Below are positions 56,477-62,621 of a stretch of DNA of 64,000 nt, in pieces; the stretch's first letter is position 1, and every line of letters begins with the position of its first letter. The notes beneath the pieces are model-generated. The model was not told the origin of the DNA. It made no database searches and worked only from the letters and a program-made list of their open reading frames with translations. This stretch comes from Meiothermus sp. Pnk-1 (GTDB lineage: Bacteria; Deinococcota; Deinococci; Deinococcales; Thermaceae), in NCBI RefSeq assembly GCF_003226535.1, contig NZ_QKOB01000010.1, positions 62,001 through 126,000 on the forward strand. The letters run 5' to 3'. The translations under genes were made by a program, and so were the position numbers.

Positions 56477-57499
56477 ATGAACACACGCGTCTCCATCCAG
56501 GATGTGGCCCAGCTCGCCGGGGTCGCCGTAAGTACGGTCTCCAGGGTGCTCAACGGCTACCGCGACGTGTCCGAGGAGACCCGGGCCAAAGTGCAGCGCG
56601 CCGTTGAGCAGCTTGGCTACCGGCCCAACCAGGCCGCCCGCACCTTCCGCACCGGCAAGACCCAGTCGGTCTCAGTCCTGCTGCCCATGATCGGCACCGA
56701 CTTCTACAACCGCCTGATCAACGGCATCGACCAGGGGCTCGCCCAGCGCGACTACGACGCCGGGCTCTTCCCCCTGCTGAGCCCGCGCCGCCTCGAGCGC
56801 TACCGCAATCCCTCCGCTCCCCCCTACAACGCCGACGGCCTGATCCTGGCCTCGCTCAACCCTGACCGCCTCTTCGAGGGGGGCAGAATCCCCGCCGACC
56901 TGCCCACCGTCCTCGTCGACATCGCCCACTCCGCCTACGACAGCGTGACCGTGGACCACCTCGCAGGGGGCTACCTCGCGGGCCGGCACCTCCTCGAGCG
57001 CCCCGCCCCGACCTTCGTGGTCATGATCGAGGAGCGCTTCGACACCCCCTTCGCCAGCGGGGTCTTCCGCGAGCGCCTCAGGGGTTTCCAGCGGGCCCTG
57101 GAGGAGGGCTCGGTAGAGTTGCCCAGGGATCACATAATCACCGTCGAGTTCAGCTGGGATGGGGGTCGCCTGGCAGCAAAGGAGATCCTTCGCAGGCTCG
57201 ACGGCCCGGCCAACATCTTCGCCACCTGCGACCTGCTGGCCCAGGGGCTCATTGACGAGTTTGCCCACAAGGGCATCGGGGTCGGGGGTGAGGTACGGCT
57301 GGTGGGCTACGACGATCAGCCCTGGGCTGAGGCCTACGGGTTGTCGACCGTGAAGCAGCCCATCGAGTCGATGGGGGGGCTGGCCGCGCGGCTACTGCTG
57401 CAACGGCTCGAGCGCCCCACCGCCGAGGTCACCCACCGGGTGCTCAGCCCGCGGTTGGTGGTGCGGGCGTCGTCCAGGGTCCAAGGTACAGGGGGGTGA
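56477..57499 (+). CDS. LacI-family transcriptional regulator
   Basis: The 340-residue protein has an N-terminal LacI helix-turn-helix (SIQDVAQLAGVAVSTVSRVLNGYRDVSEETRAKVQRAVEQLGYRPNQAAR) and a periplasmic-binding-like sensor domain ending with YDDQPWAEAYGLSTVKQPIESMGGLAARLLL. It lies directly before a maltose-type importer and GH13 enzyme, so it is probably the local sugar-responsive repressor. Its promoter overlaps a LacI-type operator. AAGGGGG precedes the ATG. Confidence 0.94.
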   Translation: MNTRVSIQDVAQLAGVAVSTVSRVLNGYRDVSEETRAKVQRAVEQLGYRPNQAARTFRTGKTQSVSVLLPMIGTDFYNRLINGIDQGLAQRDYDAGLFPLLSPRRLERYRNPSAPPYNADGLILASLNPDRLFEGGRIPADLPTVLVDIAHSAYDSVTVDHLAGGYLAGRHLLERPAPTFVVMIEERFDTPFASGVFRERLRGFQRALEEGSVELPRDHIITVEFSWDGGRLAAKEILRRLDGPANIFATCDLLAQGLIDEFAHKGIGVGGEVRLVGYDDQPWAEAYGLSTVKQPIESMGGLAARLLLQRLERPTAEVTHRVLSPRLVVRASSRVQGTGG

Positions 57500-57582: not shown

Positions 57583-58815
57583 ATGAAAGCACACTGGCTC
57601 AAGGCGATCGCAACCGCTGCCCTCGCGCTCCTCAGCCTGGGCACGGCCTAGAAACTCACCTTCTGGCACTACTGGGACGGGGCCAATGGGCAGGTCCTGC
57701 AAGGCCTCATCGAGCGCTACCAGAAGGAGCACCCGGGGGTCACCATCGAGGCGGTGTTCGTACCCGGGGGCGAGCTGTTGGCCAAGCTGCAGACCGCCAT
57801 CACCGCCCGGCAGACCCCCACCATGGCCATCTCCGACCTGGTGGCCATGCCCCTGCTCACCCAGAGCGGCGCGCTGGCCCCGCTCGATGACTACATCCGC
57901 CAGAGCAGCCTCAACCTCGCCGACTACTTCCCCGGCCCCCTGGTCTACGGGCTCTACCAGGGCAAGCGCTACAGCCTGCCGGTGAGCGCTTCCAACCTGG
58001 GGCTGTTCTGGAACAAGAACCTCTTCCGGGCTGCCGGGCTCGACCCCAACCGCCCCCCGCGCAACTGGGACGAACTCCTGCGCTTTGCCAAGCAGATCAA
58101 GGAGAAGACCGGCAAGTGGGGTATAGAGCTCTTCACCCAGGGCGGCGAGGGCACTACCTGGCAGACCCAGGTGTACTTCTGGGGTGCGGGGGCCGAGTTC
58201 CTCAATGCTTCCAACACCGCCCCGGCCTTCAACTCACCCCAGGGGGTGCGGGCTCTGCAGTTCCTGGTGGATCTGGTGCAGAAGGAGAAGGTAGCTCCGG
58301 TAGCCCCCTGGGGGCTGTTCGGACGGGGCGAAGCCGCTATGGTGATGGACGGCTCCTGGATGACCCAGTTCTTCCCGCAGCAGGTCAATTTCGAACTGGG
58401 TGCCGCTCCCTTCCCGTATCCCGCTGGTGGACGTCCGGCCACCAACATGGGCGGCGAGCAGATCTTCATCTTCCAGAACGCCGACGCGGCCACGGCCAGG
58501 GCCGCCTGGGACTTCATCAACTGGTTCAGCAGCACGCCCGTACAGGTGGAGTGGGACCGGGGGACCGGCTTCCTCCCGGTGCGCCGCTCGGTGGCGAACG
58601 ACCCGGCCTACCGGGCCTGGGTGAGCAACGCCCGCCCCCTCATGCGGCCCTTCGTCGACTCGATGGCCTTCGCCAAGCCGCGCCCGCCGGTGGCCCGCTA
58701 CCCCCAGATCTCGGATATCTTTGCCAAATACGTGCAAGAAGCCCTGCTGGGACGGCTGAGCCCCAAGGAAGCGCTGGACCGCGCGGCCCAGGAAGTCACG
58801 CCGCTGCTGCGCTAA
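57583..58815 (+). pseudogene. Maltose-type ABC substrate-binding protein interrupted by an in-frame TAG
   Basis: The frame starts at 57583 after GAGAAGGAG and encodes a signal peptide (MKAHWLKAIATAALALLSLGTA). The next codon (57649-57651) is TAG, and reading continues in the same frame with KLTFWHYWDGANGQVLQGLIERYQKEHPGVTIEAVFVPGG, exactly the mature start of the binding protein, where family members have Gln. A CAG to TAG change explains it. Without readthrough the mature protein has no signal peptide; the first later start (GTG 57754) loses the first strand. The rest of the protein (to LDRAAQEVTPLLR) is intact. Confidence 0.8.
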
Positions 58816-58831: not shown

Positions 58832-59755
58832 GTGAACGGGGTTCGCCTCCAGCAAACGCCTTCCAGAGCCTCGCGGTGGGGGCGAACCCTGGGCGAGTGG
58901 CCGGCTGCCCTGTTTTTCCTGCTGCCCACGGTGGCGGTGCTGGGTACCTTCAACTTCTACCCAGCCCTCTACTCGCTCTACCTCTCGCTCTTCGAGTGGA
59001 ACGGCCTCTCCCCGACCCGCGAGTTCGTGGGGCTGGCCAACTACGCGCGGCTGCTGGCTTCTGGGGAGTTCTGGAACTCGCTGCGGGTCACCCTGCTTTA
59101 CGCGGGCGGGGTGACCCTCTTGGCGCTGGCCCTGGGCCTGGGGGTGGCGGTGCTGCTCAACCAGCCTATTCGGGGGCAGGCCCTCTACCGGGTGCTCTAC
59201 TTCCTGCCGGTGATCACCCCCACCGTGGCCAGCGGGGTGGTGTGGAAGTACCTTTTCGACCCCACCCAGGGGGTGGTGAACCGGGGCTTGGGTGGGGTAG
59301 GAATAACCGGCCCTTCCTGGCTCAGCGACCCCTCCTGGGCCCTGGTGGCGGTGGTCGTGGTGGGGGTGTGGAAGCGGGTGGGCTTCAACATGGTGGTCTA
59401 CCTGGCGGCCCTGCAGGGCATCCCAAGGACCTACTATGAAGCAGCCCAGCTCGACGGGGCCGGACCCTGGCAGCAGTTCCGCCACATCACCCTCCCCCTG
59501 CTCGCCCCCACCACCTTCTTCCTGGTCGTCACCGCCCTCATCGACGCCTTCCAGGTCTTCGACCTGGTCTACGTGATGACCTCGGGCGGGCCGTTGGGGA
59601 GCACCGATGTGCTGGGCTACTACCTCTACCGGCAGGGCTTTCGCTACAGCGAGCTGGGCTTCGCCTCGGCGGTAGCCTACGTGATGTTCGCCCTGATCTT
59701 CGCCGTGACCGTGATCCAGTTCCGCCTAACCCGGGGAGGTCAGGGGAATGGCTAG
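58832..59755 (+). CDS. Maltose-type ABC permease, MalF type
   Basis: The 307-residue protein has six membrane helices and the EAA loop TYYEAAQLDGAGPWQQFRHITLPLLAPT. The start is a GTG at 58832 with AGGAG upstream, 16 bases after the binding-protein gene. It overlaps the next permease gene by eight bases. Unlike the preceding gene, it shows no stop codons or frameshifts. Confidence 0.93.
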   Translation: MNGVRLQQTPSRASRWGRTLGEWPAALFFLLPTVAVLGTFNFYPALYSLYLSLFEWNGLSPTREFVGLANYARLLASGEFWNSLRVTLLYAGGVTLLALALGLGVAVLLNQPIRGQALYRVLYFLPVITPTVASGVVWKYLFDPTQGVVNRGLGGVGITGPSWLSDPSWALVAVVVVGVWKRVGFNMVVYLAALQGIPRTYYEAAQLDGAGPWQQFRHITLPLLAPTTFFLVVTALIDAFQVFDLVYVMTSGGPLGSTDVLGYYLYRQGFRYSELGFASAVAYVMFALIFAVTVIQFRLTRGGQGNG

Positions 59756-60566
59756 GTCTTTGAAGGCCGTGCTGACCCACCTGCTGCTGGCAGGCGGGGC
59801 CTTCCTCTCGGCCATGCCCTTCTTGTGGATGCTCACCACCGCGCTCAAGCCGGAGAGCGCCCTGTACCAGCCCCCTCTGCTGTTCCCGGTGCATTTCCAG
59901 TGGGAGAACTTCGCCAAAGCCTGGCAGGCCGCGCCCTTCCCCCGCTTCTTCCTCAACAGCGCGGTGATGACGGTGGGGATCGTGTTGGCCCAGACCCTCT
60001 TCTCGGCCATGGCCGGCTACGCCTTCGCCCGGATGCGCTTCGCGGGGCGGGATCTGCTGTTTTTCTTCGTGCTGGGCACCATGATGATCCCTTTCCCGGT
60101 GACCCTCATCCCCAGCTTCCTGGTGGTGAACTGGCTGGGCTGGATCGACACCTACAACGCCCTCATCGTCCCGCGGGCGGTCTCGGCCTTTGCCATCTTC
60201 CTCTTCCGCCAGTTCTTCCTCTCGCTGCCCAAAGAGCTCGAGGAGGCCGCCCTGATGGATGGGGCCGGGCGTCTGACCATCTTCTTCCGCGTCGTGCTGC
60301 CCCTGTCCACCCCGGTGATCGCGGCCAGCGCGATCTTCTCCTTCCTCTTCGCCTGGAACGACTTCCTGTGGCCGCTCTTGGTGACCAACTCCCCGGACAT
60401 GCGCACCGTGCAGGTGGGCCTGGCCATGTTCCAGGGGCAGTACGGGGTGTTCTGGACTTTGCTTTGCGCTGCTGCCACCATCGTCACGCTGCCCGCCGTC
60501 CTGGCCTTCCTCGCCGCGCAGCGGCAGTTCATCGCCGGCATCACCAACACCGGCCTCAAGGAGTAG
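59748..60566 (+). CDS. Maltose-type ABC permease, MalG type
   Basis: The 272-residue protein has six helices and the EAA loop LEEAALMDGAGRLTIFFRVVLPLSTPVI, closing with QRQFIAGITNTGLKE. It starts eight bases inside the MalF-type gene. GGGGAGG lies just upstream. The operon has no ATPase; the MalK-type protein at 25.5 kb may supply it. Confidence 0.93.
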   Translation: MARSLKAVLTHLLLAGGAFLSAMPFLWMLTTALKPESALYQPPLLFPVHFQWENFAKAWQAAPFPRFFLNSAVMTVGIVLAQTLFSAMAGYAFARMRFAGRDLLFFFVLGTMMIPFPVTLIPSFLVVNWLGWIDTYNALIVPRAVSAFAIFLFRQFFLSLPKELEEAALMDGAGRLTIFFRVVLPLSTPVIAASAIFSFLFAWNDFLWPLLVTNSPDMRTVQVGLAMFQGQYGVFWTLLCAAATIVTLPAVLAFLAAQRQFIAGITNTGLKE

Positions 60567-60569
60567 CCC

Positions 60570-61976
60570 GTGCAGATCCCCGACTGGGTTAAGGACGCTA
60601 TTTTTTACCAGATCTTCCCCGAGCGCTTCAAAAACGGCGACCCCGCCAACGACCCACCCGGCACCGAGCCCTGGGGAAGGGCCCCCACCCGCGACAACTT
60701 CCTCGGGGGGGACCTCGAGGGCGTCATCCAGGGCCTCGATTACATCGCCGACTTGGGCTGCAACGCCCTCTACCTGACCCCCATCTTCAAGGCGGCTACC
60801 AACCATAAGTACGACACCCACGACTACTTCCAGATTGACCCCCACTTCGGCGACGACGCCACCTTCGACCGGCTGGTGGCCGAGATCAAACGGCGGGGGA
60901 TGCGGCTGGTGCTGGATGGGGTGTTCAACCACTGCGGCGTGGGCTTCGCGCCCTTCAAGGACGTGCTCGAGCAGGGCGAGCGCTCACGCTACCGCGACTG
61001 GTTCACCCCCTACAGCTTCCCCCTCCAGCCCGAGCTGCCCAACTACGCCACCTGCGGCGGGGTGGGCTATTTGCCCCGGCTCAACACCAGGAACCCCGAG
61101 GTCGAGGCCTTCGTGCACAAGGTGGTGTTCTACTGGTTGGAGCGCGGCATCGACGGTTGGCGCATGGATGTGGCCTACGAGATCGAGACCCCTTTCTGGC
61201 AAAGACTGCGGCAGGTGGTGAAGGCGCGCTACCCCGAAGCCTACCTGGTGGCCGAGGAGTGGCGCGACCCCTGGCCCTTCCTGCAGGGCGACACCTTCGA
61301 CGGGGTGATGCACTACCGGCTGCGCGAGCTGCTCTTCGACTTCTTTCTCAAGAACGCCCTGGCCGCCGATAGCTTTGCCCGGGCCCTCACCCTGCTGCGC
61401 GAGCGGCTGCCCGAGGGTTCGGAGTGGGGAATGCTGACCCTCCTGGGCAGCCACGACACCCCCCGCGTCCTCACCGAGTGCGGCGGCGACCGCGAGGCCG
61501 TGCAGCTCCTCTTCACCTTCCTCCTCACCTACCCCGGCGCCCCGATGCTCTACTACGGCGACGAGAACGGGATGGAGGGAGGTAACGACCCCGACTGCCG
61601 CCGCCCGATGGTCTGGGAGCCAGAGCGCTGGAAGCCGGAGGTCCGCGCCGCCGTGCGCCAACTGCTGGCCCTGCGCCGGGCGCACCCCATGCTGCGGCGG
61701 GGCGCCTTTGAGATAGCCTACGCCGAGGACCGGGTGTTCGCCTTCTACCGGGTGCTGGGCGGGGAACGGGCGCTGGTGGTGCTCAACAATACTCGGGTAC
61801 CCCGTGAACTTGCTCTACCGGTAAGCTTTCCCGAGGGAACCCGGCTTGTTGAGGTCCTGGGTTGCCGGACGTACACAGTGGAAAACGGCCGTATCAAGTT
61901 CACCCCCATGGAGCCCCGCAGGGCGTGGGTGCTGCTCGAGGCCGGGCGCCTGGGTACTGATCTCTCTGCAACCTAA
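60570..61976 (+). CDS. GH13 alpha-glucosidase / neopullulanase-type enzyme
   Basis: The 468-residue protein begins at a GTG with the catalytic domain itself (IPDWVKDAIFYQIFPERFKNGDPANDPPG), lacking the N-terminal domain of cyclomaltodextrinases. Catalytic residues are visible: Asp in GWRMDVAYEI, Glu in LVAEEWRDP, and Asp in LLGSHDTPRVL. It follows the permease by three bases. There is no signal peptide, so it would break down imported maltodextrin in the cytoplasm. Confidence 0.92.
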   Translation: MQIPDWVKDAIFYQIFPERFKNGDPANDPPGTEPWGRAPTRDNFLGGDLEGVIQGLDYIADLGCNALYLTPIFKAATNHKYDTHDYFQIDPHFGDDATFDRLVAEIKRRGMRLVLDGVFNHCGVGFAPFKDVLEQGERSRYRDWFTPYSFPLQPELPNYATCGGVGYLPRLNTRNPEVEAFVHKVVFYWLERGIDGWRMDVAYEIETPFWQRLRQVVKARYPEAYLVAEEWRDPWPFLQGDTFDGVMHYRLRELLFDFFLKNALAADSFARALTLLRERLPEGSEWGMLTLLGSHDTPRVLTECGGDREAVQLLFTFLLTYPGAPMLYYGDENGMEGGNDPDCRRPMVWEPERWKPEVRAAVRQLLALRRAHPMLRRGAFEIAYAEDRVFAFYRVLGGERALVVLNNTRVPRELALPVSFPEGTRLVEVLGCRTYTVENGRIKFTPMEPRRAWVLLEAGRLGTDLSAT

Positions 61977-62042: not shown

Positions 62043-62621
62043 ATGGGCGCCGAGCGCAAACCCCCGCTCGAGGCCTACCGCCGCAAGCGGGACTTCGGCC
62101 GCACCCCCGAGCCGGCCGGCGAGGCACGAGGCGCCGCGGGGCCGCCGATCTTCGTCGTCCAGAAGCACGCTGCCTGCAGCCTGCACTACGACTTCCGCCT
62201 CGAGGTGGACGGGGTCTTGAAGTCCTGGGCCGTCCCCAAGGACAAGCGCCTGGCGGTCATGGTCGAGGACCACCCCTTGGGCTACGCCGATTTCGAGGGA
62301 GTGATCCCGGCGGGGCAGTACGGCGGGGGCACCGTGCTGGTGTGGGACCGGGGCACCTACCGCAACCTGCTGGCCGAGCGGGAGCCGCAGCTGTCGATGC
62401 GGTAGGCTCTCGAGCGGGGGCGCGTGGAGGTGTGGCTGGAGGGCCACAAGCTGCGGGGCGGCTACACCCTCGTCCGTTTCCGGCCCCGGGAGAACCACTG
62501 GCTGCTGATTAAGACGGACGACCCCAAGGCCAGCGCGCAGCGCGACCCAGTGCGCGACGAGCCCCGCTCGGTGCTGAGCGGCCGCACGCTCGAGGAGATC
62601 GCCGCCCGGCGGAAGCGGTAG
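62043..62621 (+). pseudogene. LigD-type 3'-phosphoesterase domain protein interrupted by an in-frame TAG
   Basis: The frame shows the phosphoesterase domain of DNA ligase D as a stand-alone protein: [67 protein letters not shown] at 62403-62405 is followed in the same frame by ALERGRVEVWLEGHKLRGGYTLVRFRPRENHWLLIKTDDPKAS, which completes the domain. Relatives continue through this point without interruption. A CAG codon (MRQAL) changed to TAG is the simplest explanation. Truncated, the protein would lose its C-terminal strands. Confidence 0.75.

Follow-up and report, generated by a model that had tools for sequence, protein, structure and literature searches.

In Meiothermus sp. Pnk-1, a hot-spring bacterium related to Allomeiothermus silvanus, a recent nonsense mutation has probably inactivated the binding-protein gene in a sugar ABC-importer operon, and the importer is predicted to be dead. 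A C-to-T change in a glutamine codon (a single transition) would have produced an in-frame TAG, and translation would stop after the 22-residue signal peptide. We infer that the base is real, that the allele is null, and that its origin is recent, either in the strain or while cells grew, in the laboratory or in nature, with the substrate absent. The finding is of an ordinary, known kind, a young null allele, and involves no new reading of a stop codon. An importer predicted to be unused implies that uptake of its substrate would be lost or rerouted though the channel and hydrolase genes are present, and growth predicted by annotation from operon content alone may fail to occur.

The genome is a 3.51-Mb draft in 36 contigs (99.95% complete, 0.52% contamination). 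The window, the whole 64,000-nucleotide stretch of DNA analyzed here, lies on a contig of 136 kb (C10). Coordinates of the operon, and of the other interrupted genes found in the genome, are given in Table 1.

Table 1. Operon features and interrupted genes (positions are those of the window unless a contig is named)
Feature	Location	Strand	Remarks
LacI-family regulator, 340 aa, intact	56477..57499	+	PF00356, 71 bits; PF13377, 78 bits
Signal-peptide part of binding protein, 22 codons	57583..57648	+	ATG start; AAGGAG ribosome site 5'; leader matches the 22-residue leader of orthologues
In-frame TAG	57649..57651	+	CAG (Gln, residue 1 of the mature chain) in Thermaceae orthologues
Mature solute-binding protein, 387 codons + TAA	57652..58815	+	Open frame; purifying selection; nearest solved relative 7BVT
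ABC permease 1, intact	58832..59755	+	PF00528, 79 bits; GTG start; GAGGAG ribosome site; no stop
ABC permease 2, intact	59748..60566	+	PF00528, 74 bits; own terminator is TAG (60564-60566)
GH13 glycosidase, neopullulanase/cyclomaltodextrinase group, 468 aa, intact	60570..61976	+	PF00128, 242 bits; no stop
Stand-alone LigD 3'-phosphoesterase, interrupted	62043..62621	+	In-frame TAG at 62403-62405; PF13298, 102 bits before the stop
Phage-like small gene, interrupted	contig C3:142886-143302		TAG at 143141; Trp in two relatives, Phe in a third
Short gene, interrupted	contig C1		TAG at 184828
SBP_bac_5 binding protein, interrupted	contig C6:316181-317884		TGA at 316583, mid-domain
Transposase fragment, interrupted	contig C4		Probably TAA at 117553

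Gene structure and operon

The binding-protein frame ends at a TAA (58813-58815), and with the TAG read through, 57583-58815 yields 410 residues (MKAHWLKAIATAALALLSLGTA-x-KLTFWHYWDG...) that match SBP_bac_8 and SBP_bac_1 in a profile search (158 and 156 bits, respectively). The same frame codes on both sides of the TAG, and orthologues of 93-95% identity carry glutamine through the position, which argues for an interruption rather than a chance stop. A reading made from the sequence alone had described a good ribosome site, a signal peptide of 22 residues, the TAG, and an unbroken frame behind it, and the sequence bears out each of these. The gene is single copy in the assembly, where the second-best binding-protein match has 30% identity. 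Placement of the stop at the cleavage junction is unremarkable, because 40 codons of the Allomeiothermus silvanus orthologue sit one transition from a stop, the junction codon being 1 of these 40 equally accessible codons, and because glutamine is usual at position +1 of the mature chain among these relatives.

The first in-frame start after the TAG is a GTG at 57754. Restart there could yield only a cytoplasmic fragment, as the product would have neither a signal peptide nor residues 1-34 of the mature chain; a functional restart was rejected for this reason, and apart from background misreading the gene is not expected to supply any functional exported protein.

The regulator, which shares 83-98% identity with its counterpart in the corresponding cluster of relatives, is stop-free, as are both permeases and the GH13 gene, with dN/dS of 0.03-0.25 overall (permease 1, 0.07-0.12; permease 2, 0.12-0.15; GH13, 0.17-0.25). 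The permeases and glycosidase behind the binding protein are intact, in agreement with the sequence-only reading.

Relatives and selection

Orthologues with 93-95% protein identity were found in A. silvanus, Calidithermus chliarophilus, C. roseus, and Meiothermus granaticius, and one with 86% identity in a Meiothermus metagenome-assembled genome (MAG); more distant relatives were found in a Trueperaceae MAG, an Acetothermia MAG, and Thermotogae. At the position of the TAG, all five Thermaceae sequences have CAG, which upholds the earlier claim that the stop replaces the glutamine that begins the mature chain; the Trueperaceae sequence has CAA, and the Acetothermia sequence has GAA. No internal stop occurs among the binding-protein matches listed from the other 60 genomes.

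The mature part of the gene has a dN/dS of 0.07 against A. silvanus and 0.05-0.10 against the other orthologues. Codons private to the window, at positions where the others agree, comprise 17 synonymous, 3 missense, and 1 nonsense change, and the corresponding count for A. silvanus is 17:3. Neither dN/dS nor the private-codon counts showed relaxed selection in the rest of the gene after the TAG, which would be expected only for an old stop. The 17:3 ratio and the low dN/dS indicate that too little time has passed since the TAG arose for the gene to decay, and the lack of secondary decay means that the TAG is very young, is not real, or is suppressed or read through. The complete absence of secondary damage counts against a null allele to the extent that it requires a very young mutation. 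The earlier suggestion that an inactivating mutation would be recent is nonetheless supported by the intact operon partners, the unrelaxed selection, and the lack of any relative with the stop.

Other interrupted genes and sequence quality

Stops with a same-frame coding signal on both sides (dicodon scan) were sought in 2.46 Mb (70% of the genome), with a sensitivity of approximately 42% for simulated one-transition stops. Stricter filters (at least 60 codons after the stop and a first start at least 10 codons away; 1.7 Mb) missed the LigD gene and left the binding-protein gene as the only interrupted gene, a result rejected since the looser scan found more. The earlier treatment of the amber codon as singular therefore does not stand: it is one of several, and the TAG of the LigD gene lies only 4.75 kb downstream. 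The LigD frame codes after its TAG too, and homologues sharing 59-62% identity remain open at this position; no homologue was found in the close relatives tested, and the nearest are in genomes G053 and G050. The interrupted gene on contig C3 had no match in a PHROGs search, and no close orthologue of the SBP_bac_5 gene was found in the four relatives searched. Inspection removed further candidates from the scan that proved to be antisense frames or the normal ends of genes. Neither the stop codon nor the residue it replaces is constant across the interruptions, a pattern that normal pseudogene formation would produce. Among the stops that a single transition could create here, TAG is the commonest and makes up 58% of the supply, so its excess among the interruptions is not telling.

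These results bear on the possibility that the gene of the strain itself is intact and the TAG reflects an error of sequencing or assembly, or else a minority allele from a mixed sample. We consider this the main rival explanation, unlikely but with a real chance of being correct. It would fit the lack of any other damage in the gene or operon and the draft state of the genome, and the second amber codon nearby might mark a patch of poor sequence. Against it stand the completeness and low contamination of the assembly, the scatter of the other interrupted genes over several contigs, and the decay-prone kinds to which these belong (a phage-like gene, a transposase, and an accessory binding protein). 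Base substitutions are also rarer than indels among the errors of draft assemblies, which again counts against an error. A recent null allele remains the preferred explanation.

Decoding of the stop

Among 48 tRNA genes (Infernal, with anticodons all from ARAGORN), none had the anticodon CTA, TTA, or TCA that a suppressor would require; all 48 are ordinary, and those for glutamine have the anticodons CTG and TTG. Release factor RF1 (prfA) is present (473 bits against a curated cutoff of 423), and TAG terminates 410 of the 1,105 long open reading frames sampled, permease 2 of the operon included. In E. coli, tRNA-Gln is known to misread UAG at a low rate, and U at position +4 lowers readthrough (PMC5289835). 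The base after the TAG of the binding-protein gene is A, and misreading may yield a trace of full-length protein, with no sign of a larger amount.

A hairpin begins 8 bases 3' of the TAG (z = -2.05). It folds equally well in A. silvanus, both Calidithermus species, and M. granaticius, all of which have CAG, and so belongs to the coding sequence; it was accordingly rejected as a stop-specific cis element for readthrough. A long hairpin at 57658-57729, within the coding sequence directly behind the signal peptide, is kept in four relatives. In A. silvanus, a third-position change affects both of its sides once (ACC/AAG to ACT/AAA), and in the Meiothermus MAG the hairpin is broken. Conservation of the hairpin may be chance arising from conserved residues.

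That the amber codon is functional, with a near-cognate glutamine tRNA misreading it usefully so that a small share of the protein is exported, is very unlikely. Purifying selection on the mature frame would agree with such a role, as would the documented misreading in E. coli together with the A at +4, and the position of the hairpin. Selection acting before the TAG arose, however, accounts for this in full and gives no sign that the TAG is read; the hairpin is shared with CAG relatives; and the stop itself is seen in no relative among the matches listed. There is, moreover, no CUA tRNA, RF1 is present, and the other interrupted genes include ones with TGA or TAA and one with TAG at a tryptophan position. 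Programmed readthrough gains no support, as the stop is conserved in none of the relatives compared and has no stop-specific element 3' of it. The same observations lend no support to the functional readthrough that the sequence-only reading had offered as an alternative, in which a share of the protein would be exported. Slightly less probable still is a real amber codon tolerated through misreading by tRNA-Gln, with the signal-peptide junction serving as an accidental expression valve. Useful readthrough, if demonstrated, would change the verdict of an ordinary null allele; nothing here points that way.

Recoding, in which the whole genome, or some mobile portion, decodes TAG as an amino acid (a recoding or suppressor strain), would account for TAG in four or five of the clearest interruptions, two of them within 5 kb, but is highly improbable, and a suppressor tRNA or code change was rejected, given the lack of a cognate tRNA, the presence of RF1, the ordinary use of TAG as a terminator, the share of TAG in the single-transition supply, and the occurrence of TGA and TAA interruptions.

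Likely substrate and comparison with known systems

The nearest solved structure to the binding protein is the cyclic maltosyl-maltose (CMM)-binding protein of Arthrobacter globiformis (7BVT; 337 bits, with the next best at 147 bits), at 44% identity over 382 residues. Ten ligand-contact residues of the CMM-binding protein were taken from PMC7676653; six are identical here (Asp95, Trp204, Trp269, Gly301, Glu302, and Arg376), and four are changed (Asn145 to Ser, Tyr192 to Phe, Asn205 to Gln, and Gln265 to Met). Against MalE (NCBIfam NF007011), the protein scored 31 bits, below the curated cutoff of 291. The earlier label of a maltose-type binding protein is therefore loose, with MalE below its cutoff and 7BVT the nearest structure. 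Judged from these sequence comparisons, small branched or cyclic alpha-glucans would be a better guess than maltose for the substrate of the importer.

The likeness to the CMM system is partial. The binding protein is closer to 7BVT than to other solved binding proteins, and the GH13 enzyme matches the CMM hydrolase (5ZXG) at 436 bits; however, that enzyme scores higher against a maltogenic amylase/neopullulanase (1SMA, 483 bits), and the operon, unlike the CMM system, has no gene for the CMM-forming maltosyltransferase.

Another counterpart is the operon on plasmid pMESIL01 (NC_014213) of A. silvanus DSM 9946, which has the same gene order (LacI regulator, binding protein, two permeases, and GH13) and 91.8% DNA identity to the operon of the window. 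Unlike in the window, its binding-protein gene has no stop, and NC_014213 carries two copies of the operon, arranged as an inverted repeat spanning at least 13.2 kb. Between these copies there are nine single-base indels and zero substitutions; behind three of the nine, the frame of one GH13 copy is damaged. These differences reflect either real decay or errors in an old record.

A literature search on premature stops in Meiothermus and on recently formed pseudogenes found nothing useful. The window gene differs from a typical single-nonsense pseudogene in having no further decay, so the allele is either very young or unverified. It is otherwise like the single-nonsense pseudogenes of bacterial carbohydrate-uptake operons, with one in-frame stop, an intact frame on both sides of it, intact orthologues in relatives, and other genes of the genome interrupted likewise.
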